Source: Rhizobium lentis
GTDB lineage: Bacteria > Pseudomonadota > Alphaproteobacteria > Rhizobiales > Rhizobiaceae
DNA length: 64,000 bases
Assembly (NCBI RefSeq): GCF_017352135.1
Contig: NZ_CP071454.1
Coordinates: 868,001 to 932,000 of the forward strand
Reading direction: 5' to 3'
Part shown: positions 1,032-18,283 of the stretch, piece by piece
Layout: each line of letters opens with the position of its first letter
How positions within the stretch are numbered: position 1 is the stretch's first letter
The notes under the pieces: generated by a model
What the model saw: the letters and a program-made list of their open reading frames with translations, nothing else
The model's database searches: none
What the model was told of the DNA's origin: nothing
Made by a program: the position numbers and the translations under genes

Positions 1032-1796
1032 TCACCTTCCTAGATAGTTCTCGATCACCTTCGGATCCGAACTGACGAAGTCGATCGATCCTTCCGCCAG
1101 CACCGAGCCTTCCGCGAGGCACGTCACCTTGACACCAAGGTCGCGGATGAAGCCCATGTCGTGCTCGACGACGACGACCGACCGGGTCTTGGCGATATCC
1201 TTGAGCAGGATCGCCGTTTCCGCCGTCTCCGCATCCGTCATGCCGGCCACCGGCTCGTCGACGAGGAGCAGCTTCGGCTCTTGCGCCAAGAGCATTCCGA
1301 TCTCCAGCCATTGCTTCTGTCCGTGCGAAAGGTTGGCGGCCAATTCGTCGCGCCGGTGCGTCAGTCGTACTGTTTCCATAATCTCGTCTATGCGCGCCCT
1401 GTCCTCGCCTGAAAGACGGTAGAACAGGGTCGAAAAGACTGAGCGTCGGCGGTTCAGCGCCAGTTCCAGATTGTCCCACACCGTATGGCTTTCGAAGACC
1501 GTGGGCTTCTGGAACTTGCGGCCGATGCCGAGCTGAGCGATGTCGGCCTCATCCTTCTTGGTGAGATCGACGGTGCCGTTGAAGAAAACCTCGCCTTCGT
1601 CGGGCCTGGTCTTGCCGGTGATGATATCCATCATCGTCGTCTTGCCGGCGCCGTTCGGGCCGATGATGGCGCGAAGCTCGCCCGGCTCGATGACGATCGA
1701 GAGCGAATTCAGCGCCTTGAAGCCGTCAAAGGAAACGGAGACGCCGCTGAGATAGAGGACGCTGTTGGGTTTGACGTCGGGAATCATGGCACTCAC
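1032..1796 (-). CDS. urtD: Urea ABC transporter ATPase UrtD
   Basis: First ATPase (LivG type) of the urea importer, 254 residues, cytoplasmic face of the inner membrane. Walker A is GPNGAGKTT at residues 46-54, the signature LSHGQ at 156-160 and Walker B LLLVDEP with D180, followed by the H-loop VVEHDM. The GTG start at 1796 overlaps the urtC stop by four bases (GTGA), which implies translational coupling; an ATG at residue 4 is an alternative. The following gene in the operon is a small membrane protein rather than urtE directly. Confidence 0.95.
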   Translation of the reverse strand: MSAMIPDVKPNSVLYLSGVSVSFDGFKALNSLSIVIEPGELRAIIGPNGAGKTTMMDIITGKTRPDEGEVFFNGTVDLTKKDEADIAQLGIGRKFQKPTVFESHTVWDNLELALNRRRSVFSTLFYRLSGEDRARIDEIMETVRLTHRRDELAANLSHGQKQWLEIGMLLAQEPKLLLVDEPVAGMTDAETAETAILLKDIAKTRSVVVVEHDMGFIRDLGVKVTCLAEGSVLAEGSIDFVSSDPKVIENYLGR

Positions 1797-2956
1797 TCCG
1801 CTGCCTGGATTTTCGGCTCGATGCCGTCTTCCTGCGCAGGCGGCGGCGCAGCTTTGGTAACGGCTTTCCGCCCGCCGAGATAATGCGAGATCGTGCCGAC
1901 GACGCCCTTCGGCAGGAACAGCGTGACGGCAACGAAGAGGCCACCCAGCGCAAACAGCCAGATCTCCGGGAACAGGCCGGTGAAGATCGTCTTGCCGCCA
2001 TTGACGAGGATCGCGCCGATGATCGGCCCGATCAGCGTTCCCCGCCCGCCGACCGCCGTCCAGATGACGACTTCGATAGAGTTTGCAGGCGCAAATTCGC
2101 CAGGATTGATGATGCCAACCTGCGGCACGTAGAGAGCGCCGGCAATGCCCGCCATCATCGCCGAAACGACGAAGGTGAAGAGCTTGAAATGCTCAACGCG
2201 GTAGCCGAGGAAGCGCGTGCGGCTTTCGGCATCGCGCACGCCAACCAGCACCTTGCCGAACTTCGAGCGCACGATCGCCGAGGCAATCGTGAGCGACAGT
2301 GCCAGGAAGATTGCGGTCGCGGCAAAGAGGCTGGCGCGCGTGCCGTCCGCCTGGATGTTGAAACCGAGGATGTCCTTGAAATCGGTCATGCCGTTATTGC
2401 CGCCGAACCCCATGTCGTTGCGGAAAAACGCAAGCAGCAGCGCATAGGTCATCGCCTGGGTGATGATCGAGAGGTAGACGCCGTTGACCCGCGAGCGGAA
2501 GGCGAACCAGCCGAAGATGAAGGCGAGCAGGCCAGGCACGAGAAGCACCATCAGCGCCGCGAACCAGAACTGATCGAAGCCGTGCCAGAACCAGGGCAGT
2601 TCCTTCCAGTTCAGGAATACCATGAAATCGGGCAGGATCGGATCGCCGTAGACGCCGCGCGAGCCGATCTGGCGCATCAGATACATGCCCATCGCATAAC
2701 CGCCGAGCGCGAAAAAGGCGCCGTGGCCGAGCGAGAGGATGCCGCAGAAACCCCAGACGAGATCGAGCGCCAGCGCCAGAAGCGCATAAGTCAGATACTT
2801 GCCGAACAGCGCCATGATATAGGTCGGAACGTGCAGCGGATGGGTCGGGCCGGTGGCAAGGTTCAGCACCGGCACGAGGATGGCGGCCGCCAGCAGCAGG
2901 GCGACGGCAATTGAGATCCTGCGATCGAGAGACCGGAGAAGGAAGGCCGTTATCAT
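1793..2956 (-). CDS. urtC: Urea ABC transporter permease UrtC
   Basis: LivM-type permease of 387 residues, one half of the transmembrane channel for urea. It has about nine to ten hydrophobic helices, starting at residues 15-35, and the LivM hallmark GLAWGFCGILSLGHGAFF-like motif (here DLVWGFCGILSLGHGAFFA). The C-terminal tail is rich in Ala/Pro and charged residues. Its ATG at 2956 overlaps the urtB stop and its stop overlaps the urtD start, four bases each, so urtB-C-D form a tightly coupled unit. Confidence 0.95.
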   Translation of the reverse strand: MITAFLLRSLDRRISIAVALLLAAAILVPVLNLATGPTHPLHVPTYIMALFGKYLTYALLALALDLVWGFCGILSLGHGAFFALGGYAMGMYLMRQIGSRGVYGDPILPDFMVFLNWKELPWFWHGFDQFWFAALMVLLVPGLLAFIFGWFAFRSRVNGVYLSIITQAMTYALLLAFFRNDMGFGGNNGMTDFKDILGFNIQADGTRASLFAATAIFLALSLTIASAIVRSKFGKVLVGVRDAESRTRFLGYRVEHFKLFTFVVSAMMAGIAGALYVPQVGIINPGEFAPANSIEVVIWTAVGGRGTLIGPIIGAILVNGGKTIFTGLFPEIWLFALGGLFVAVTLFLPKGVVGTISHYLGGRKAVTKAAPPPAQEDGIEPKIQAAE

Positions 2957-4578
2957 GCTTCCACCGCCCTTCCTTTGAGTGCGAAGAGCCCGCGCGGACG
3001 CTTCTGGATGAAGAGAATGATGAGGACGAGCACCAGGATCTTGCCGAGCACGGCGCCGGCGAAGGGCTCGAGGAACTTGTTGACGACGCCGAGCGACAGC
3101 GCGCCGACCAGCGTGCCCCAGAGATTGCCGACGCCGCCGAAGACGACGACCATGAAGCTGTCGATGATGTAGTTCTGGCCGAGGTTGGGCGAGACGTTGT
3201 CGATCTGCGAGAGCGCCACGCCCGCCATGCCGGCAATGCCGGAGCCGAGCGCAAAGGTGAAGGCGTCGACCCAGCCGGTGCGGATGCCCATCGAGGAGGC
3301 CATCCGCCGGTTCTGCGTCACTGCCCGCATCTGCAGGCCGAAGGCGGAACGCTTGAGCAGCATCAACAGCGTCAAAAACACGACCAGCGAGAAGACGATG
3401 ATCCAGAGCCGGTTCCAGGTGATGACGAGCCCGCCGAAATCGAAGGCGCCGGACATCCAGCTCGGATTGCGAACCTCACGATTGGTCGGGCCGAAATAGC
3501 TGCGGATCGCCTGCTGCAGGATCAGCGACACGCCCCACGTGGCGAGCAGGGTTTCCAGCGGCCGGCCGTAGAGATAGCGAATCACCGAACGTTCGATGAC
3601 GAGACCGACCAGACCGGTGAAGAGGAAGGCCGCCGGTACCGCGAAGGCCAGCGAATAATCGGCAAGCGAGGGAAAGGCCGAGGCGATCGTTTCCTGCACG
3701 ACATAGGTCGTATAGGCGCCGATCATCACCATCTCGCCATGCGCCATGTTTATGACGCCCATGACGCCGAAAGTGATGGCAAGGCCGATCGCGGCCAAGA
3801 GCAGCACCGAACCGAGCGACAGGCCGTACCAGACGTTCTGGACGACGTCCCACAGCGCCAGGTCGCGGTTGATCGAATTGATCTCCGTCTGAATCGCAGG
3901 CTTCAGATCGTCCGGCGCATTCGCCATCGCCGTCGTCAGGATCGTCAGCGCATCGCGGCCGCCACGGGCAGCGATCATGTCGATTGCCGCCTTCTTGTCC
4001 TCGATGCCGGCATCGCTCTTCAGCATCATCACGGCGCGCGCCGCTTCCATCGTGCTTTTGATCTCGCCGTCCTTTTCGGCCGACAGAGCCGAGTTCAGGA
4101 GATCGAGATTGGCGGGATCGGCATCCTTGAGCATGCCCTCAGCCGCCGCGAGCCGCGCGGAGCGATCCGGGCTCAGAAGCGTCAGCTGGCTCATCATCGT
4201 CGTGATCGTGGTGCGCAGCGCATTGTTGATCTTGACCTTCGACATCATGTCGGGGTCAACATCGGCGACCGCCTCGCCGGTGATCGGATCGGAATAGGTG
4301 GGCTCATCCTCCGTGCCGCCCTGAACGAGAACGGGACCGCCCTCCGAATTGACGTAGAGCTGGCCGTCGCTCAGCTGCTTCAGGATCTTGCTGACATGCG
4401 GGTCGCCGGAAGCGGCGAGTGCCCGTATCGCCGCATCGCGCTCGGGAAAGCCGCCGACGCCGAGCGCATCGACGAGTGCATGCACATCGCCCTCGGCGCG
4501 AAGGCCGGTCATCGAAAGCGTCAGGCCCGAAAACATCAGGCAAAATGTCAGAAGAAAGATCTTGATGGCGCGAAACAT
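2953..4578 (-). CDS. urtB: Urea ABC transporter permease UrtB with periplasmic extension
   Basis: LivH-type permease of 541 residues. Residues 1-28 look like a signal sequence, followed by roughly 200 residues of helical, charged sequence before the permease part (about residues 245-535, eight or so helices, with INMAHGEMVMIGAY as the LivH hallmark). This long N-terminal, presumably periplasmic extension is typical of UrtB and separates it from BraD/LivH, which helps assign the operon to urea. It follows urtA after a 112-bp gap holding a strong hairpin and is coupled to urtC by a four-base overlap. Confidence 0.95.
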   Translation of the reverse strand: MFRAIKIFLLTFCLMFSGLTLSMTGLRAEGDVHALVDALGVGGFPERDAAIRALAASGDPHVSKILKQLSDGQLYVNSEGGPVLVQGGTEDEPTYSDPITGEAVADVDPDMMSKVKINNALRTTITTMMSQLTLLSPDRSARLAAAEGMLKDADPANLDLLNSALSAEKDGEIKSTMEAARAVMMLKSDAGIEDKKAAIDMIAARGGRDALTILTTAMANAPDDLKPAIQTEINSINRDLALWDVVQNVWYGLSLGSVLLLAAIGLAITFGVMGVINMAHGEMVMIGAYTTYVVQETIASAFPSLADYSLAFAVPAAFLFTGLVGLVIERSVIRYLYGRPLETLLATWGVSLILQQAIRSYFGPTNREVRNPSWMSGAFDFGGLVITWNRLWIIVFSLVVFLTLLMLLKRSAFGLQMRAVTQNRRMASSMGIRTGWVDAFTFALGSGIAGMAGVALSQIDNVSPNLGQNYIIDSFMVVVFGGVGNLWGTLVGALSLGVVNKFLEPFAGAVLGKILVLVLIILFIQKRPRGLFALKGRAVEA

Positions 4579-4690: not shown

Positions 4691-5983
4691 TCAGGAGCCC
4701 TTGCCGCCGCACTTGCCTGTGGCAACGTTGAAGTTGCCGCAGGAGAGAGGCTTGCGCCAATCGGAGATCAGGTCCTTGGAGTCGGGCAGGTAGTCGGACC
4801 ATTCGTCGCCGACGACGGCGGGGGTCTGCTGGACGATTTCGAACTGGCCGTCGGCCTGGATTTCACCGATCAGCACCGGCTTGGTGATGTGGTGGTTCGG
4901 CATGACGGTGGCATAACCGCCGGAGAGGTTCGGAACGGTGACGCCGATGATGGTGTCGAGAACGGCATCCGTGTCGGTTGTGCCAGCAGCCTGAACGGCC
5001 TTCACCCAGGCGTTGAAGCCGATATAGGCGGCTTCCATCGGGTCGTTGGTCACGCGCTTGTCGTTCTTGGTGAAGGCATGCCATTCCTTGATGAACTTCT
5101 TGTTGGCGGGGCTTTCCACCGACTCGAAGTAGTTCCAGGCGGCGAGATGGCCGACGAGCGGCTTGGTGTCGAGACCGGCCAACTCTTCTTCGCCGACCGA
5201 GAAGGCGACGACCGGAATGTCGGTTGCCTTGATGCCCTGGTTGCCGAGTTCCTTGTAGAAGGGCACGTTGGCATCGCCGTTGATGGTGGAGACAACGGCG
5301 GTCTTCTTGCCGGCCGAACCGAATTCCTTGATCTTGGCGACCTCGGTCTGCCAGTCCGAGAAACCGAACGGCGTGTAGTTGACGAGAATGTCTTCCTTCG
5401 GAATGCCCTTGGATTCGAGATAGGCTGCCAGGATCTTGTTGGTCGTACGCGGATAGACGTAGTCGGTGCCTTCGAGCACGAAGCGCTTCACGCCTTCGGT
5501 GTTCATCAGGTAGTCGACTGCCGGGATCGCCTGCTGGTTCGGGGCGGCACCCGTGTAGAAGATGTTGCGCGAGGATTCTTCACCCTCGTACTGCACGGGA
5601 TAGAAGAGCAGCGAGTTCAGCTCTTCGAAGACGGGCAAGACGGATTTGCGCGAGGACGAGGTCCAGCAGCCGAACACGGCGGCGACCTTGTCCTTTTCGA
5701 TCAGTTCGCGTGCCTTTTCCGCAAAGAGCGGCCAATCGGACGCCGGATCGACGACGACCGCTTCGAGCTTCTTGCCGAGAAGGCCGCCCTTCTTGTTCTG
5801 CTCGTCGATGAGCATCAGCATGGCGTCTTTCAGCGTGGTTTCGGAAATCGCCATCGTGCCAGACAGCGAATGTAGCACGCCGACCTTGATCGTGTCGTCG
5901 GCGGCAACCGCACCGCTGAAGGCAGCGGACGCCGCCATGACGGCGCCGAGCGCAGCACCCGTAATAGTGGTTCTGAGATTCAT
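4691..5983 (-). CDS. urtA: Urea ABC transporter substrate-binding protein UrtA
   Basis: Periplasmic binding protein of 430 residues that captures urea (or short amides) for UrtBCDE. An N-terminal signal peptide ends near SGAVAA (residues 24-28), followed by DDTIKVGVLHSLSGTMAISE, the usual start of UrtA. The family's characteristic LFYPVQYEGEE stretch is also present. The ATG at 5983 is chosen over an upstream in-frame ATG at 6037 because GGGGAG lies just before it and the signal peptide starts there. It is first in the operon and 191 bp from the convergently facing end of the phosphatase gene's 3' side, so the operon promoter lies at about 5990-6170. Confidence 0.96.
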   Translation of the reverse strand: MNLRTTITGAALGAVMAASAAFSGAVAADDTIKVGVLHSLSGTMAISETTLKDAMLMLIDEQNKKGGLLGKKLEAVVVDPASDWPLFAEKARELIEKDKVAAVFGCWTSSSRKSVLPVFEELNSLLFYPVQYEGEESSRNIFYTGAAPNQQAIPAVDYLMNTEGVKRFVLEGTDYVYPRTTNKILAAYLESKGIPKEDILVNYTPFGFSDWQTEVAKIKEFGSAGKKTAVVSTINGDANVPFYKELGNQGIKATDIPVVAFSVGEEELAGLDTKPLVGHLAAWNYFESVESPANKKFIKEWHAFTKNDKRVTNDPMEAAYIGFNAWVKAVQAAGTTDTDAVLDTIIGVTVPNLSGGYATVMPNHHITKPVLIGEIQADGQFEIVQQTPAVVGDEWSDYLPDSKDLISDWRKPLSCGNFNVATGKCGGKGS

Positions 5984-6080
5984 CTGATTGAACTCCCCTC
6001 TCTTTGTTCCGCAACAGGCCGGAAAAACGGAAATCAACTGTTGCCGAGGGGACTATCGGGTGCTGCAGCGCGAAAACACA

Positions 6081-6096
6081 TACGCAAAATGACGTA
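6081..6096. promoter_or_regulatory. Candidate operator upstream of urtA
   Basis: An inverted repeat TACG-N8-CGTA lies 98 bp upstream of the urtA start. Spaced four-base arms of this kind suit a dimeric LuxR/NarL-type regulator, and such a regulator is encoded at 11632-12549. The link between the two is inference; the site could be chance, as the arms are short. Confidence 0.35.
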
Positions 6097-6174: not shown

Positions 6175-8079
6175 TTAGCCGCCAATTGTCAGGGTGACCG
6201 AGGTCGGGCCGTAGGAGAGGGTCGCCGTGTGGCCGGAGATGGTGAACTTGCCGAAAGTGCCGGTCACGGCAGCAGCCTTCAGGATCTCGATTTTCGTTCC
6301 AGGCGCCGGCGCGAAGCCATGGGCGAGCGTCACGTCGAGATCGCCGGCAAGCATCGCCTTGCCTGCAACGACGAGCGTGCCTGCCCCGTCAGCAGCGAGC
6401 GTCGGCTTCGCCGTGGCGCTAGCGAGTTGCTGATAGTCGCCGCCGACGGTCAAAGGCTTGTCGGCCGCCACGACGAGCGACCCGCCATTGACCATCAGCC
6501 CGCCGGCGCCGAGAGCCGAAGGCGAGCGGGTGACCAGCACGCCCTCTTCCAGCACGGTGCCGCCAGCATAGCTGTTGGCGCCGGAAAGGCCAAGGATGCC
6601 GCTGCCGCGCTTCACCAGCTTGCCCTTGCCGCGGATGTCATTGCGCCAGGTATCGATCGCATTAAAGCCACCCTTGGCCGCATCCATCGTCACGATCACA
6701 TCCTGCTCGAATGCACCGTAGCCGTCGGCTGCGGCAAACAGGTTGAGGCGGCCGTAACCTTCCGCGTCGTCGAGCAGCGGATAACCCGAGGCGATTTCCG
6801 TCGTCATTAGCACCTCGCGGCGCTGTTCGCCGTCGAGATAGGGCAAACGGGTCTCTAGAAGCACTTCTGCGCCCTGGGGCACCCGAGCCGGCTGATCGAT
6901 TGCATGGATCGTGGGCATGCCGTAGCTCAGGCGCTGCAGCACATAGGCACGATTGGCGTCATGATCGGCGAAACGGTCTGCGGAGAGCCGCGCCGCATGG
7001 GCCGCGACTTCGAGCGCACCCGCATCCGCAACGCCCGACTTGGCGATCAGCCATGCCTGCGCCTGGGCGTAGCCATCGCTCTTCAACGCTGCATTGTCGG
7101 CCTTGTTCAGATTATAGACAACGGTAGCGGTGCCGAGCATGCGGCCGCCCATCACATCAAGGGGCGAATGCATGCCGCCGAGGATGCGGTCTTCGCCGAG
7201 TTCGCTGGCCCGCGTGATCATTTCCTGAAAGCGCTGCGGCACGAGATAGGCCATCGCGAGCGCATCTCGCCAGGCTTCCGCCGTATGGCCGCTCGGGAAA
7301 CCGCCGTCCTCGACCGGCTTGCTGCTCTTGGCAGGCTCGAGGGTCGGGACGACAGAGACGTCCTGGCTCCAGCGATAGGGACGCGCATATTTGAAATAGC
7401 GCTTGGCGGGCTCCGTCGAGCCGTCACCGCTTGCGGCGTTGATGAAGTCGATGGCAAGGCCCATGTCCGGATTGGCATCGGTCTTGTTTTCCGTGTCCGG
7501 TTTGCTGCCGGCGCCGCGATTGTTGCCCTTGTCGTCATATTTGACGGTCGTCGCATCGGCCGCGACTTCGGTGATGGTGGTGGTCTGCTTGGAACCGGCC
7601 TTCCAGGCATCCTTCAGCGGACCGAGGCCGTCGACGATGCTGGCATTCTTGCCGCGCCGGTCGTCGAGATAGGCAGCGACCGCCTGCTCGGCCGTCCGCG
7701 CCTTCGTCACTTTGATAACATAGCCGATATTCGCATCATGAACGAGCTTGTTGACGATTTGGCCGTCGGTCTTGCTGAAAGGGATGCCATCCCAATCCGT
7801 CTTGGCGACAGCGGGGCAACTGTCCTTGGCCGGAGCTTCTACGCCGGCATCGACGAAGGGCGTTCGCGGTGTCCATACTTCGAGAAAGCCGGAGAGAAGA
7901 TGGACGGCGGCGTTGGTGTCGACCGTCGAGAAGCAGGCGTCACCGCGCTTGTTGGTATTTCCGGTCTCGGCATAGGGCGCTTTCGCGGTCGTGGCCTGCT
8001 CTGCGGCGGCAAGCGAAGGCACGACCGAAAGAAAGCTGACGAGAGCGGTGCCCAGGCGGCAAAGTTTTGAAACGGACAT
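6175..8079 (-). CDS. Exported PAP2-family phosphatase with autotransporter-associated repeat
   Basis: A 634-residue secreted protein. Residues 1-25 are a signal peptide ending PSLAAA. The PAP2/class A acid phosphatase signature is complete: KYARPYRW near residue 230, FPSGHT near 263 and GGMHSPLDVMGG near 303, so a phosphatase active site is likely. The C-terminal part carries an autotransporter-associated beta-strand repeat (LSGANSYAGGTVLEEG, about residues 495-520) and further beta-rich sequence to the end, but no beta-barrel domain. It is divergent from the permease-kinase gene with 176 bp between them. Substrate and final location (periplasm or surface) are unknown. Confidence 0.88.
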   Translation of the reverse strand: MSVSKLCRLGTALVSFLSVVPSLAAAEQATTAKAPYAETGNTNKRGDACFSTVDTNAAVHLLSGFLEVWTPRTPFVDAGVEAPAKDSCPAVAKTDWDGIPFSKTDGQIVNKLVHDANIGYVIKVTKARTAEQAVAAYLDDRRGKNASIVDGLGPLKDAWKAGSKQTTTITEVAADATTVKYDDKGNNRGAGSKPDTENKTDANPDMGLAIDFINAASGDGSTEPAKRYFKYARPYRWSQDVSVVPTLEPAKSSKPVEDGGFPSGHTAEAWRDALAMAYLVPQRFQEMITRASELGEDRILGGMHSPLDVMGGRMLGTATVVYNLNKADNAALKSDGYAQAQAWLIAKSGVADAGALEVAAHAARLSADRFADHDANRAYVLQRLSYGMPTIHAIDQPARVPQGAEVLLETRLPYLDGEQRREVLMTTEIASGYPLLDDAEGYGRLNLFAAADGYGAFEQDVIVTMDAAKGGFNAIDTWRNDIRGKGKLVKRGSGILGLSGANSYAGGTVLEEGVLVTRSPSALGAGGLMVNGGSLVVAADKPLTVGGDYQQLASATAKPTLAADGAGTLVVAGKAMLAGDLDVTLAHGFAPAPGTKIEILKAAAVTGTFGKFTISGHTATLSYGPTSVTLTIGG

Positions 8080-8255: not shown

Positions 8256-11200
8256 ATGACAGCGCGCCAACGCATCATTCCGGTGAGACGCGAGTATAAT
8301 CGCTGGGTCGCCAACCAGACGCTCGAAGATTATGCGCTGCGCTTCACCGCGAAGAGCGCCCGCCATTTTTCCTCTGAGCGCATTTCGCAGACGGCGATCG
8401 GCGCGATCTCCTTCCTAGCGCTTGAGGCGATCGGCGGGGCGATCACCCTCTCCTACGGCACCACCAACGCTTTCTACGCCATCATTGTCGCCTCGATCGC
8501 CATGCTGGCGATCGGCCTGCCGATCAGCCGATATGCCGTCCGTCACGGCGTCGACATCGATCTTCTGACGCGCGGCGCCGGCTTCGGCTACATCGGCTCG
8601 ACGATAACTTCGCTGATCTATGCGAGCTTCACCTTCATGCTGTTTGCGATCGAGGCCTCGATCATGTCCGGCGCGCTGGAGCTTACCCTCGGCATTCCGC
8701 TTTGGATCGGCTACATCATCAGCGCTGTCATGGTCATCCCGTTGGTGACGCACGGCGTGCGTCTGATCAGCAAGTTCCAGCTGATGACCCAGCCATTCTG
8801 GATCGTGCTGAACATCCTGCCCTTCATCTTCATCGCCTTCATGGACTGGGAAAAGTTCGATCTCTGGCGAGCCTTCGCTGGCATCCGCCACGCCTCCGGC
8901 CCGCCGGGTACCGTGGCCGAATTTGATCTGGTTGAATTCGGTGCGGCCTCCGCCGTCATTCTGGCGCTGATGTCGCAGATTGGCGAACAAGCCGATTTCC
9001 TGCGCTTCCTTCCGCCGGTCCCGCAGCGCAAGTGGCACCACCGCCTCGCCGTCTTTCTCGCCGGTCCCGGCTGGGTCATCATCGGCGCACCGAAACTGCT
9101 TGCCGGTTCGTTCCTCGTCGTGCTGACCTTCACCTCGGGAGTGCCCCTCGACCGCGCCGCCGATCCGGCGCAGATGTATCTCACGGCCTTCGGCTACATG
9201 GTTCCCTGGCACGATGCCGCGCTGCTGTTGATGGCCGCCTTCGTCGTCGTCTCGCAGCTCAAGATCAACGTAATGAACGCCTATGCCGGCTCGCTCGCCT
9301 GGTCGAACTTCTTCTCCCGGCTGACCCACAGCCATCCCGGCCGCGTCATCTGGCTGGTCTTCAACGTTGCGATCGCTCTGCTCTTGATGGAACTCGGCAT
9401 CTATCGGCTGCTGGAGGAGACGCTCGGCATCTTCTCGATCATCGCCATGGCCTGGCTCTGCACGATCTCTGCCGATCTCTTCATCAACAAGCCGCTGGGG
9501 CTCGCCCCTCCCGGCATCGAGTTCAAGCGCGCCCATCTCTACGACATCAACCCGGTCGGCCTCGGCGCCATGACGCTGTCGGCGACGATATCGCTGATCG
9601 CCCATTTCGGCGCTTTCGGCGAAATAGCCGCGTCGCTCGCTCCCTATATCACCCTCGTCATCGCACTGATCGCCACACCGGCGCTTGCCTGGGCGACGAG
9701 GGGCAAATTCTATCTCGCCCGCAAGCCGCGCCAGAGCTGGAAGAATTTGACGAGCATCACCTGCTCTGTCTGCGAGCATCCGTTCGAGCCAGAAGACATG
9801 GCCTGGTGCCCGGCCTATGCCGCACCGATCTGCTCGCTTTGCTGCTCGCTCGACAGTCGCTGCCACGACATGTGCAAGCCGGCCGCCCGTTTCAACGCAC
9901 AGGTCGGCACCGTCGCCAAAACGCTGCTGCCGGAAAGCATTCTTGGCAAGCTGACGACGCGCCTCGGCCGCTACGGCATCGCGGTCGCGCTGGCGCTGAC
10001 CGCCATCGGCGCGATCCTGGCAATGATCGCCCATCAGGTCGCCTCCGCCTCTCCCGAGACGGCAGAGGTGGTCAACCGCACCATCCTCATCGTCTTCTTC
10101 GTATTCTCGGTGATTTCAGGCGTGGTCTGCTGGTTCTATGTGCTTGCCCATGACAGCCGCGTCGTCGCAGAGGAGGAATCCTCACGTCAGAACACGCTGC
10201 TGCTCAAGGAAATCGCCGCTCACAAGAAGACCGACGCCGCGCTGCAGAATGCCAAGGAGACGGCGGAGGCCGCCAACCGGGCCAAGAGCCGCTATGTCGT
10301 CGGCCTCAGCCACGAGCTGCGCACACCTTTGAATGCCGTGCTCGGCTACGCCCAGATCCTCGAACGCGACGAGACGATCCCGGCGCCACGCCAACCCTCG
10401 ATCAAGGTCATCCGTCGCAGCGCCGAACATCTCTCCGGCCTGATCGACGGCCTGCTCGATATCTCCAAGATAGAGGCCGGCCGCCTGCAGGTCTATTCCA
10501 ACGAGATCAACATCCAGGATTTCCTCGACCAGATCGTTGAAATGTTCCGGCCGCAGGCGCAGGCCAAGGGGCTAGCCTTCATCCACGATCGCTCACCGGC
10601 CCTGCCGCAATTCGTCCGCACGGATGAGAAGCGCCTGCGCCAGATCCTTGTCAACCTGCTCTCCAACGCCATCAAATTCACCGACGAAGGCAGCGTCACC
10701 TTCGATGTCGGCTATCGCAGCCAGGTCGCGACCTTCACCGTCACCGACACTGGCCGCGGCATCGCCGAAAAGGACCTCACGCGCATCTACGAGCCTTTCC
10801 AGCGCGGCGAAGCCGACAGCGTGCGGCCGATGCCGGGCCTCGGTCTCGGCCTCACCATCACCCGGCTTCTGACCAATACGCTCGGCGGCGAGATTGCGGT
10901 TTCGAGCGTCAAGGACGAAGGCTCGACCTTCCGTGTGCGGCTGATGCTGTCCGCCGTCATGCGCGCCGCCGCCCCGCCGCAGGAAAAGCGCATCGTTGGT
11001 TACGACGGTCCGCGCCGCACGATCGTCGTCGTTGACGACAATGAAGATCACCGCGACATGATGCGTGAGATCCTGGCGCCGCTCGATTTCATCGTGCTGA
11101 CGGCGGCAGGCGGCGCCGAATGCCTGACGCTGATCGACGGCATCATGCCCGATCTTTTCCTCGTCGATATTCTGATGCCCGGCATGAGTGGCTGGCAGCT

Positions 11201-11639
11201 CGTCTCGCGCCTGCGTGAGGCCGGCCAGACGGCGCCGGTACTGATGCTCTCGGCCAACATCGGCGATGCGACGGTCTTAAGCGAGAGCGACGACAGCCAC
11301 AACGACGCGATTGGCAAGCCCGTCGACATCCGCCAGTTGCGCGACAAGCTCGCCCTGCATCTCGGCCTGAACTGGGTCTACGCCGACGACGCTCCCATCC
11401 CTCCTGCAAAGACCGAAGCGCCGATGCTGAGCCCGGGTGCGGCCCATGTGCAGGAGTTGCTGCGGCTCGGCGAGATCGGTTACATCAGGGGCATCGAAGC
11501 CAAGCTTTCGGACCTTGCCAAGCTGGAGGCAAATCGGCCATTCACGGAGGCCCTTCGACCCTATGTGGCAGCCTTCGATCTGGCCGGCTTCATGACATTC
11601 CTGCACGACTTCGAAGAAAAGGTGGAACCCATTGGCTGA
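8256..11639 (+). CDS. NCS1-like permease fused to hybrid histidine kinase
   Basis: An 1127-residue membrane sensor. Residues about 40-490 resemble a cytosine/purine (NCS1) permease with around twelve helices (EDYALRF start, LLTRGAGFGYIGS loop). Residues 503-540 hold eight cysteines (503, 506, 518, 526, 529, 530, 536, 540). Two more helices lie near 575-635, then a dimerisation/phosphoacceptor region with H686 in SHELRTPLN, an ATPase domain (NLLSNAIKFTDEG, DTGRGI, GLGLGL) and a receiver with D971 in LFLVDILMPG, ending in a helical tail. Its last eight bases overlap the response regulator gene. The layout recalls CrbS (SLC5 transporter plus kinase) but with a different transporter family. A nitrogen-related ligand is inferred from the flanking urt and bra operons. 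Confidence 0.9.
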   Translation: MTARQRIIPVRREYNRWVANQTLEDYALRFTAKSARHFSSERISQTAIGAISFLALEAIGGAITLSYGTTNAFYAIIVASIAMLAIGLPISRYAVRHGVDIDLLTRGAGFGYIGSTITSLIYASFTFMLFAIEASIMSGALELTLGIPLWIGYIISAVMVIPLVTHGVRLISKFQLMTQPFWIVLNILPFIFIAFMDWEKFDLWRAFAGIRHASGPPGTVAEFDLVEFGAASAVILALMSQIGEQADFLRFLPPVPQRKWHHRLAVFLAGPGWVIIGAPKLLAGSFLVVLTFTSGVPLDRAADPAQMYLTAFGYMVPWHDAALLLMAAFVVVSQLKINVMNAYAGSLAWSNFFSRLTHSHPGRVIWLVFNVAIALLLMELGIYRLLEETLGIFSIIAMAWLCTISADLFINKPLGLAPPGIEFKRAHLYDINPVGLGAMTLSATISLIAHFGAFGEIAASLAPYITLVIALIATPALAWATRGKFYLARKPRQSWKNLTSITCSVCEHPFEPEDMAWCPAYAAPICSLCCSLDSRCHDMCKPAARFNAQVGTVAKTLLPESILGKLTTRLGRYGIAVALALTAIGAILAMIAHQVASASPETAEVVNRTILIVFFVFSVISGVVCWFYVLAHDSRVVAEEESSRQNTLLLKEIAAHKKTDAALQNAKETAEAANRAKSRYVVGLSHELRTPLNAVLGYAQILERDETIPAPRQPSIKVIRRSAEHLSGLIDGLLDISKIEAGRLQVYSNEINIQDFLDQIVEMFRPQAQAKGLAFIHDRSPALPQFVRTDEKRLRQILVNLLSNAIKFTDEGSVTFDVGYRSQVATFTVTDTGRGIAEKDLTRIYEPFQRGEADSVRPMPGLGLGLTITRLLTNTLGGEIAVSSVKDEGSTFRVRLMLSAVMRAAAPPQEKRIVGYDGPRRTIVVVDDNEDHRDMMREILAPLDFIVLTAAGGAECLTLIDGIMPDLFLVDILMPGMSGWQLVSRLREAGQTAPVLMLSANIGDATVLSESDDSHNDAIGKPVDIRQLRDKLALHLGLNWVYADDAPIPPAKTEAPMLSPGAAHVQELLRLGEIGYIRGIEAKLSDLAKLEANRPFTEALRPYVAAFDLAGFMTFLHDFEEKVEPIG

Positions 11640-12549
11640 GCCGGCCCTCCCTCGCGATATCGTTCTGCTCGTCGACGACTCGCCGGAGGCGCTCGGCTTC
11701 CTGACCGATGCGCTCGAACAATCCGGCTTCTCCGTGCTGATCGCCACCTCAGGCACGGCAGCACTTGGCATCGTGGAGCGGATCACGCCCGACCTCATCC
11801 TGCTCGACGCCGTCATGCCTGCGATGGATGGCTTCGAGACCTGCCGCAGGCTGAAGGCGAACGCCGCCGTCGCTCAGGTGCCGGTCATCTTCATGACCGG
11901 GCTGACGGAAACCGAGCACGTCGTGCATGCGCTGGAATCCGGCGGCGTCGATTACCTCACCAAGCCGATCAACATCGACGAACTGCGCGCCCGCATCCGC
12001 GTTCACCTGCGCAATGCCCGCTCGACCCAGAGTGCCCGGGTTGCGCTGGATGCCGCCGGTCGTCACCTGCTGGCGGTCAAAGGGGACGGTGCGATCCATT
12101 GGTCGACGCCGCAGGCGACGCGGCTCGTCAATGCCGCCATGGGCAGCGACGACGGCATGGAGATCGTCGTCCGCCATATCGCCGGCTGGATGCGCGACCG
12201 CGTGGCAGCGGTACGCGAAGGCATCATCTCGGTCACCCATGCCGGCCAGACCGCGCTCCAGCTCGCCTTCCTCGGCGCGATTGGGCCGGACGAATATCTC
12301 TTCCGCCTCACCGCCGCCAGCCAGCGAAGCGACGACGAGGTGCTGCGCCAGCGATTCTCGCTCACCCAGCGCGAATCCGAAGTGCTGCTTTGGATTGCAA
12401 AGGGCAAGCCCAATCGCGATATCGGGGAGATACTGGGTTTGTCGGCGCGCACCGTGAACAAGCACCTCGAGCAGATCTATGTGAAGCTCGGCGTCGAGAA
12501 CCGTGCATCGGCCGCCGTGAAGGCTACGCATGTGCTGCATGAGATGTGA
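11632..12549 (+). CDS. LuxR-type response regulator, partner of the permease-kinase
   Basis: A 305-residue two-component regulator. Residues 8-122 are a receiver with the acidic pair in VDDS, phosphorylation site D59 (LILLDAVMPAMDGF) and K near 109 (YLTKPI). A middle section of about 100 residues has no clear family but could be PAS-like. The C-terminal LuxR helix-turn-helix spans about residues 240-300 (LTQRESEVLLWIAKGKPN, LSARTVNKHLEQIYVKLGV). It starts with TTG at 11632 inside the kinase gene, overlapping eight bases, so the pair is translationally coupled. Its targets are unknown; the neighbouring urt operon is the obvious candidate. Confidence 0.93.
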   Translation: MAEPALPRDIVLLVDDSPEALGFLTDALEQSGFSVLIATSGTAALGIVERITPDLILLDAVMPAMDGFETCRRLKANAAVAQVPVIFMTGLTETEHVVHALESGGVDYLTKPINIDELRARIRVHLRNARSTQSARVALDAAGRHLLAVKGDGAIHWSTPQATRLVNAAMGSDDGMEIVVRHIAGWMRDRVAAVREGIISVTHAGQTALQLAFLGAIGPDEYLFRLTAASQRSDDEVLRQRFSLTQRESEVLLWIAKGKPNRDIGEILGLSARTVNKHLEQIYVKLGVENRASAAVKATHVLHEM

Positions 12550-13994: not shown

Positions 13995-14348
13995 TCAATG
14001 TTTGTCCTTCCACGAAAACGCGGAAGTTTTTTCGTACAGCCAGTAATAGTTGTTGACCATCTGATTGGTACGGCGAAAGCGGAAGCCGGCAGTCGAGAAG
14101 ACCAGCAGCGTCACGAAATCGATGGTGTAATAGAAGGCGCTGAGCATCGGCCCATTGAACAGGGCATGGTGCAGAAACTGCATCGCCCAGGCCAGGAGGA
14201 AGGTGTAGATCACGGCGAGCGGATAATTATTCCAGCCGTCCGCAACCGCCTTCCCGGCCCGCCACGCCGTCCAGAAGCCGATCAGCACGACGAGAGCGCG
14301 AATGACGACTCGAACACCGTCGTCACTTTCGAAGAAAAGTCCCTGCAT
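13995..14348 (-). CDS. Small membrane protein embedded in the bra operon (DUF6867-like)
   Basis: 117 residues with about three hydrophobic segments (around 17-30, 43-60, 70-90) and a conserved-looking aromatic C-terminus (NNYYWLYEKTSAFSW). It has a very strong ribosome site (GGAGGAG) and lies 18 bp behind braG and 120 bp before braC, so it is cotranscribed. It resembles proteins I associate with the uncharacterised family DUF6867; this is from memory, not a search. No function is known. An accessory role for the Bra transporter is inferred only from position. Confidence 0.82.
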   Translation of the reverse strand: MQGLFFESDDGVRVVIRALVVLIGFWTAWRAGKAVADGWNNYPLAVIYTFLLAWAMQFLHHALFNGPMLSAFYYTIDFVTLLVFSTAGFRFRRTNQMVNNYYWLYEKTSAFSWKDKH

Positions 14349-17380: not shown

Positions 17381-18283
17381 TTATACCTTCTCGACTTCCG
17401 GCCGCCCGAGAATACCCGTCGGCTTGAAGATCAGCACGAAAGCGAGGATGGCGAAGGTCGCCACATCCTTGTACGCGATGGTGAAATAGGCCGACCACAG
17501 CGATTCGATCAGGCCGATCATCAGCCCGCCGAGCACGGCGCCCGGCAATGAGCCGATGCCGCCGAGAACGGCTGCGGTAAACGCCTTCACACCCGGCGTA
17601 AAGCCGTCAGCGAACGAAGCAACGCCATAATACATCAGATACATGGTGCCGGCGACTGCAGCCAGCGCGGCCCCCATGACGAAAGTGATCGAGATCGTCT
17701 GATCGACATTGACGCCGAGCAGCGCCGCCATCTTGCGGTCCTGCTCCGTCGCGCGCTGGGCCCGGCCGAGTGCCGTATGGTTGACGATGTACCAGAAGAC
17801 GGTGAGCAGCACCGCGGTGATCAGGATGATGATGATCTGCTTCAGCGACACCGAAATATTGCCGAACTGGTAGACCGAGCTCACCATGGGCGGGATCGGC
17901 TTGTTGCGCGGTCCCTGAGTCACCTGGATGAAGTTGGACAAAACAATCGACATGCCGATTGCGGTAATCAGTGGCGCAAGGCGGAAAGAACCGCGCAGCG
18001 GACGGTATGCGACACGCTCGATCGTCCAATTCCACAAGCTCGTCATCAGCATCGCTACGACAAGCATCGCCAACAGCAAAATTGCCACCGGGAGGCCTGC
18101 GAAGATGGATGTGAGAACGAGAAAGACGATAAGAGCGGCGAAACCACCGAGCATGAAGATGTCGCCATGGGCGAAGTTGATCATGCCGATAATGCCATAA
18201 ACCATCGTATAGCCGATAGCCACAAGGCCATAGATGGATCCGAGCGTCAGCCCATTGAAGAGCTGCTGGACGAAATACTCCAT
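17381..18283 (-). CDS. braD: Branched-chain amino-acid ABC transporter permease BraD
   Basis: LivH-type permease of 300 residues with about eight helices and the hallmark [16 protein letters not shown]. The ATG at 18283 is chosen instead of an in-frame ATG at 18322 because AGGGGA precedes it and the protein then begins [18 protein letters not shown] as LivH proteins do. It is the first gene of the bra operon, so the promoter must lie in the 532-bp gap toward 18815. Confidence 0.94.

Follow-up and report, generated by a model that had tools for sequence, protein, structure and literature searches.

A putative urea- or amide-sensing kinase headed by an NCS1-type permease and its predicted link to the urt operon of Rhizobium lentis

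In our study, a stretch of 64,000 nucleotides from the Rhizobium lentis chromosome (positions 868001-932000 of contig 1; genome size 6.42 Mb; the window hereafter) was analyzed around the gene of a hybrid histidine kinase which carries a permease at its N-terminus and overlaps the gene of a LuxR-type response regulator. The two proteins quite probably form a two-component system of the transceptor type, activating the urea transporter operon urtABCDE on urea or a short-chain amide. Judged from sequence conservation, a link between the pair, a predicted operator and the urt genes is very probable; the permease is likely the sensor, and urea or a short amide is a reasonably good candidate for the signal. 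Literature searches found no published description of an NCS1-headed kinase system.

A de novo search highlighted the dyad TACGTCA-N2-TGACGTA, and of 37 representative regions between urtA and the kinase, 27 contain the form TACG-N8-CGTA, whereas in five mononucleotide shuffles no dyad occurred in more than 7. The matrix built from 53 sites in 49 of 71 regions identifies one strong site in the window, upstream of urtA (Table 1); the runner-up dyad (5446-5461, 10.1 bits) lies inside urtA. The distance to urtA is counted from the ATG at 5983, which was preferred by eye, the longest open reading frame beginning at 6037. In the whole genome the pattern TACGYN6RCGTA is found at two places only, the window site and the one inside urtA, and the reversed pattern 30 times, this reversed control not being dinucleotide-matched. 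If up to three mismatches are the sole measure, 0.91 matches are expected per window and 78 places are found in the genome. The window site would not stand out on mismatch count, and its weight comes from the intact core, the position and the conservation.

Conservation was followed in 146 loci, namely the window, the best 80 of at least 591 matching stretches in the species collection and 65 further stretches. Eight were set aside because tblastn gave no permease-kinase (L140, partial; L169, L173, L174 and L176, free-standing permeases; L172, L170 and L171), and the remaining 138 comprise the window and best 80 (81 loci, mostly Rhizobiales) and 57 others; they are not independent, as close relatives within Rhizobium make up many of them and one contig contributes both L086 and L087. 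At 11 bits or more the matrix gave 138 matches in 2,975 kb against 20 in reversed sequence, and at 14 bits or more 119 of the 138 loci were positive against 4 in reversed sequence, training loci included. At this threshold a site was present in 83/85 loci with divergent urtA, 28/31 with formamidase or amidase, 2/9 with urease, 1/3 with same-strand urtA and 5/10 others; 13 of the 119 site-bearing loci hold more than one.

The tie to the kinase is clearest among the urtA promoters outside the training set. All 16 with a kinase on the stretch were positive (14.3-29.3 bits, 41-121 bp before the projected start), some of them being close relatives of training loci, whereas none of the 71 without a kinase on the fetched stretch reached 14 bits (best 8.3; Fisher 8e-18). 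These 71 include second urt copies from kinase-holding genomes, two loci with a urease-type kinase outside the stretch (L224 and L234, about 10 kb and 4 kb off) and a kinase-type urtA on a kinase-less contig piece (L294). In 15 genomes having both a kinase-linked locus and a second urtA, 14 linked loci scored 13.5-28.1 bits at best and the second copies 3.4 or less; G189 departs from this, with no site in its kinase-linked locus L129. Two of the linked loci (L206 and L182) have their best match at the formamidase gene, with urtA sites of 22.9 and 20.7 bits, and the 13.5-bit match of L202, below threshold, lies beside ureA. All three annotated plasmid loci were positive (24.4-28.9 bits). Moreover, the site remains at urtA where PAP2, phytochrome or other genes come in between, as in the window itself (PAP2) and in Sinorhizobium meliloti, in which three genes separate urtA from the kinase. 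L055 has a second site, at the kinase gene; L130-L132, where urt genes are missing from the vicinity, have theirs ahead of the kinase gene, and additional sites were seen at FmdA in six loci and at porin genes in six. The predicted operator goes with the kinase-linked urt operon and not with urt operons generally, which strongly supports the proposal of the first-pass annotation that the pair controls urt.

The neighbourhood points in the same direction. The regulator lies directly downstream of the kinase in 138/138 loci (its DNA-binding part was reached beyond the kinase end), and urtA, with at least 45% identity to that of the window, is on 90/138 stretches and divergent upstream of the kinase in 85. 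FmdA is on 30/138 stretches, UreC on 25/138 and AmiE on 11/138, neighbour gene names being taken from scanned representatives, and at least one of UrtA, UreC, FmdA and AmiE is on 128/138 fetched stretches. Among the ten loci without them, three end at contig ends (L079, L110 and L175) and two have a UrtC-like gene (L119 and L123). The binding protein of formamidase loci is further from the UrtA of the window, several still being above the UrtA cut-off. UreD comes after the urt genes in Rhizobium relatives, so the operator may also serve urease. The same pair thus recurs across Proteobacteria beside urea, urease or formamide genes, and because the quick tree as drawn shows eight or more changes of neighbour, from formamidase to urt or urease or back, the common ligand of these systems, i.e. 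urea or a short-chain amide, is the most likely one. The earlier suggestion of a nucleobase, allantoin or a urea-related compound is narrowed accordingly: the urea-related part fits the neighbours and is kept as a prediction, while nucleobase and allantoin fit them less well.

The architecture first read from the letters, a permease joined to a hybrid kinase with H686 and D971 and a LuxR-type partner, was confirmed by domain searches and coordinates. HisKA, HATPase_c and receiver domains are present with their phosphorylation sites, and the regulator combines a receiver with a GerE helix-turn-helix, as in LuxR/FixJ-type proteins. Assignment of the permease to the NCS1 type follows from its fold and from a chain of homology. 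Residues ~23-485 share the NCS1 fold, with CodB and Mhp1 as top fold matches; the Pfam NCS1 model PF02133 gave no match to this part at E 10, and the family profile reaches (3.8e-46) a free-standing relative which itself matches PF02133 above the cut-off (3.6e-9). The part does not belong to the SLC5 (SSF) permeases. Pfam recognised no STAC or PAS domain in the kinase, and that position is occupied by a module of eight cysteines and two more helices, which probably sit in the membrane. The nearest free-standing permease found adjoins a CN-hydrolase, a Peripla_BP_5 (AmiC-like) protein and an AmiR-like protein, and the kinases fall apart from four free-standing permeases in the quick tree. No second copy of the permease part was found among the proteins of the own genome, where the other matches are kinase or receiver domains and the PF02133 profile gave no match.

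In the proposed mechanism, urea or a small amide resembling it would be bound at the membrane by the NCS1-fold part, which perhaps also carries it; the signal would reach H686 by way of the 8-Cys module and the last two helices. The phosphoryl group would then move to D59 of the regulator, directly or via D971, and the regulator would bind TACGTCA-N2-TGACGTA about 105 bp upstream of urtA, by which urtABCDE would be activated. Binding of the regulator to this site is the simplest account of the conserved sequence pattern, as the operator accompanies those urt operons that are linked to the kinase; activation rather than repression is assumed by analogy, because the related LuxR-type regulators CrbR and RpuR activate. 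The 8-Cys module is likely cytoplasmic, because twelve helices precede it. Such a system would explain the switching-on of urea uptake in many bacteria that live in soil or with plants. An NCS1-headed family would also allow the mode of sensing of transporter-fused kinases to be tested with simple reporters, as it offers a single predicted promoter site in the genome, receiver-less or permease-less variants and a likely small ligand.

UreR and AmiC/AmiR are soluble regulators of urea or amide use, with urea or amides as their signals; the theme predicted here is similar, but the kinase is a membrane protein. In CodB and Mhp1 the fold is that of residues ~23-485, whereas the permease of the window is fused to a kinase and missed by the Pfam NCS1 model, and its transport is putative. 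The SLC5/STAC sensor kinases (CbrA, CrbS/MxtR and RpuS) likewise join an N-terminal, transporter-like part to a (hybrid) histidine kinase; in our case the permease is NCS1-type and the 8-Cys module with two helices takes the STAC/PAS position. PMC13022988 describes kinases fused to transporters of the SLC5 family and leaves their mode of sensing open. For CrbS and RpuS, PMC9100948 and PMC5715377 describe a LuxR-type partner regulator which activates uptake or use genes via a repeat. The operator predicted here is unlike the ACTU sequences printed in PMC5715377 and unlike the direct repeat reported for RpuR.

A working urea or amide importer whose transport flux is sensed by the kinase, as may hold for CbrA and histidine, is possible, though we consider it rather doubtful. 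It is unlikely that the permease is a mere anchor or fossil and that the 8-Cys module reads an internal signal such as nitrogen state, metal or redox. The module itself speaks for such a role: all eight cysteines are invariant in 25/25 alignment rows, and among 398 genomes the module occurs in 52, at 57 places, every frame (894-1365 aa) belonging to this kinase family. Its model is weakly similar to zinc-binding treble clefs, from which zinc binding is likely, and a soluble CbrA form without the transporter part remains active according to the review PMC7918813. A bare anchor would drift, however, and the permease part retains 48-59% identity between families, many of its polar and glycine positions not varying at all; moreover, a permease-free variant was met only once in the 398 genomes.

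That the operator belongs to a different urt regulator, with the kinase pair as a bystander, is very unlikely in view of the negative kinase-less promoters, second urt copies in kinase-holding genomes among them, and of a Klebsiella plasmid which has the operator along with the kinase module. Control of the bra amino-acid importer, the other target first proposed for the pair, is highly improbable. The gene braC adjoins the pair in the window and is on 44/138 stretches, and a weak match (5.0 bits) lies at 18273, 49 bp into the first of the bra permease genes; but all 44 belong to the window and best 80 and none to the 57 other loci. In the window no site was found at braC, in the bra promoter region or at the kinase gene, and the best matrix scores are -7.8 bits upstream of braC and -5.0 bits upstream of the bra permease genes, against 28.2 bits at urtA. 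Control of bra is not supported by these findings.

Some observations weigh against urt activation by a permease-sensing kinase. Nineteen of the 138 loci have no site at 14 bits, including 7/9 of the urease type, two of these seven showing variant dyads. Five loci with full flanks (L090, L130, L131, L132 and L136) have none of the sought urea or amide genes, five neighbours each having been scanned in L130 and L136. Further, the receiver-less L171 and the permease-less L172 mean that neither the receiver nor the permease is indispensable in this kinase line.

The family is widely distributed, up to three candidates having been scored per genome in the permease searches. In the class, 27/385 genomes were positive, the own included: 25 have the permease part in full within a frame of kinase length, one has it in part, and one has a free-standing NCS1 permease that is weakly related. 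In the phylum 57/398 were positive; in 52 the permease match was complete or almost so, and the other five had only fragments, weakly related free-standing permeases or a relative without the permease. The doubt whether homologues occur with urt genes at all was not borne out, as UrtA (TIGR03407, E ≤1e-90) is in 51/52 kinase genomes vs 118/346 others. Among 72,556 plasmids 515 match at E 1e-100, of which 496 cover at least 80% of the query and 340 are from Klebsiella. The closest proteins are those of Rhizobium sp. R339 and R. bangladeshense (98% identity over residues 1-660). There is about an even chance that a widespread, 8-Cys-marked family of NCS1-type transceptor kinases exists, serving as dedicated membrane sensors of urea and short amides with an operator of its own, and that its module of kinase, regulator, urt and formamidase is found on conjugative plasmids as well.

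Table 1. Positions of the described features in the window.
Feature	Position	Strand	Remarks
Predicted operator TACGCAAAATGACGTA	6081..6096	.	28.2 bits; centre 105 bp upstream of preferred urtA ATG
Permease-headed hybrid histidine kinase	8256..11639	+	1127 aa
NCS1-fold permease part	8256..9725	+	residues ~1-490; limits approximate
8-Cys module	9762..9875	+	C503, 506, 518, 526, 529, 530, 536, 540
Two more predicted helices	9960..10145	+	residues ~569-630; between Cys module and kinase domains
HisKA domain	10284..10481	+	H686 at 10311-10313
HATPase_c domain	10620..10949	+	
Receiver domain	11022..11351	+	D971 at 11166-11168
LuxR-type response regulator	11632..12549	+	305 aa; D59; starts 8 bases inside kinase gene
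urtA, urea ABC transporter binding protein	4691..5983	-	TIGR03407 557.8 bits (cut-off 492.75)
urtB	2953..4578	-	TIGR03409 435.9 bits (cut-off 250.3)
urtC	1793..2956	-	TIGR03408 449.9 bits (cut-off 296.2)
urtD	1032..1796	-	named from position and sequence cluster; order matches annotated L346, L347

Several relatives and neighbours were also noted. A conjugative IncF Klebsiella plasmid (L345:2909-13264) holds amiF formamidase, urtA-E, a kinase-regulator pair of the same family and the operator. A kinase relative at L172:8857-10713 (+) has no permease and its Cys module is reduced to a remnant, with a same-family regulator near. Divergent kinases of 885 and 894 aa occur at L170:7499-10156 (-) and L171:7663-10347 (-), both with formamidase near; no receiver was recognised by Pfam in that of L171, and a separate receiver-kinase protein comes next. 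In the UrtB of the window (541 aa) the model spans 247-537, leaving ~246 N-terminal residues unaccounted for. The small DUF6867 gene at 13995-14348 (-), between braC and the bra ATPase gene, belongs to a cluster of 40 members across the 146 loci. The 634-aa frame at 6175-8079 (-), which combines a PAP2 phosphatase domain with an autotransporter repeat, separates urtA from the kinase in some Rhizobium and is missing in others, and in L073 and L075 a bacteriophytochrome and a heme-oxygenase-like gene (nine members per cluster) are inserted at this place.
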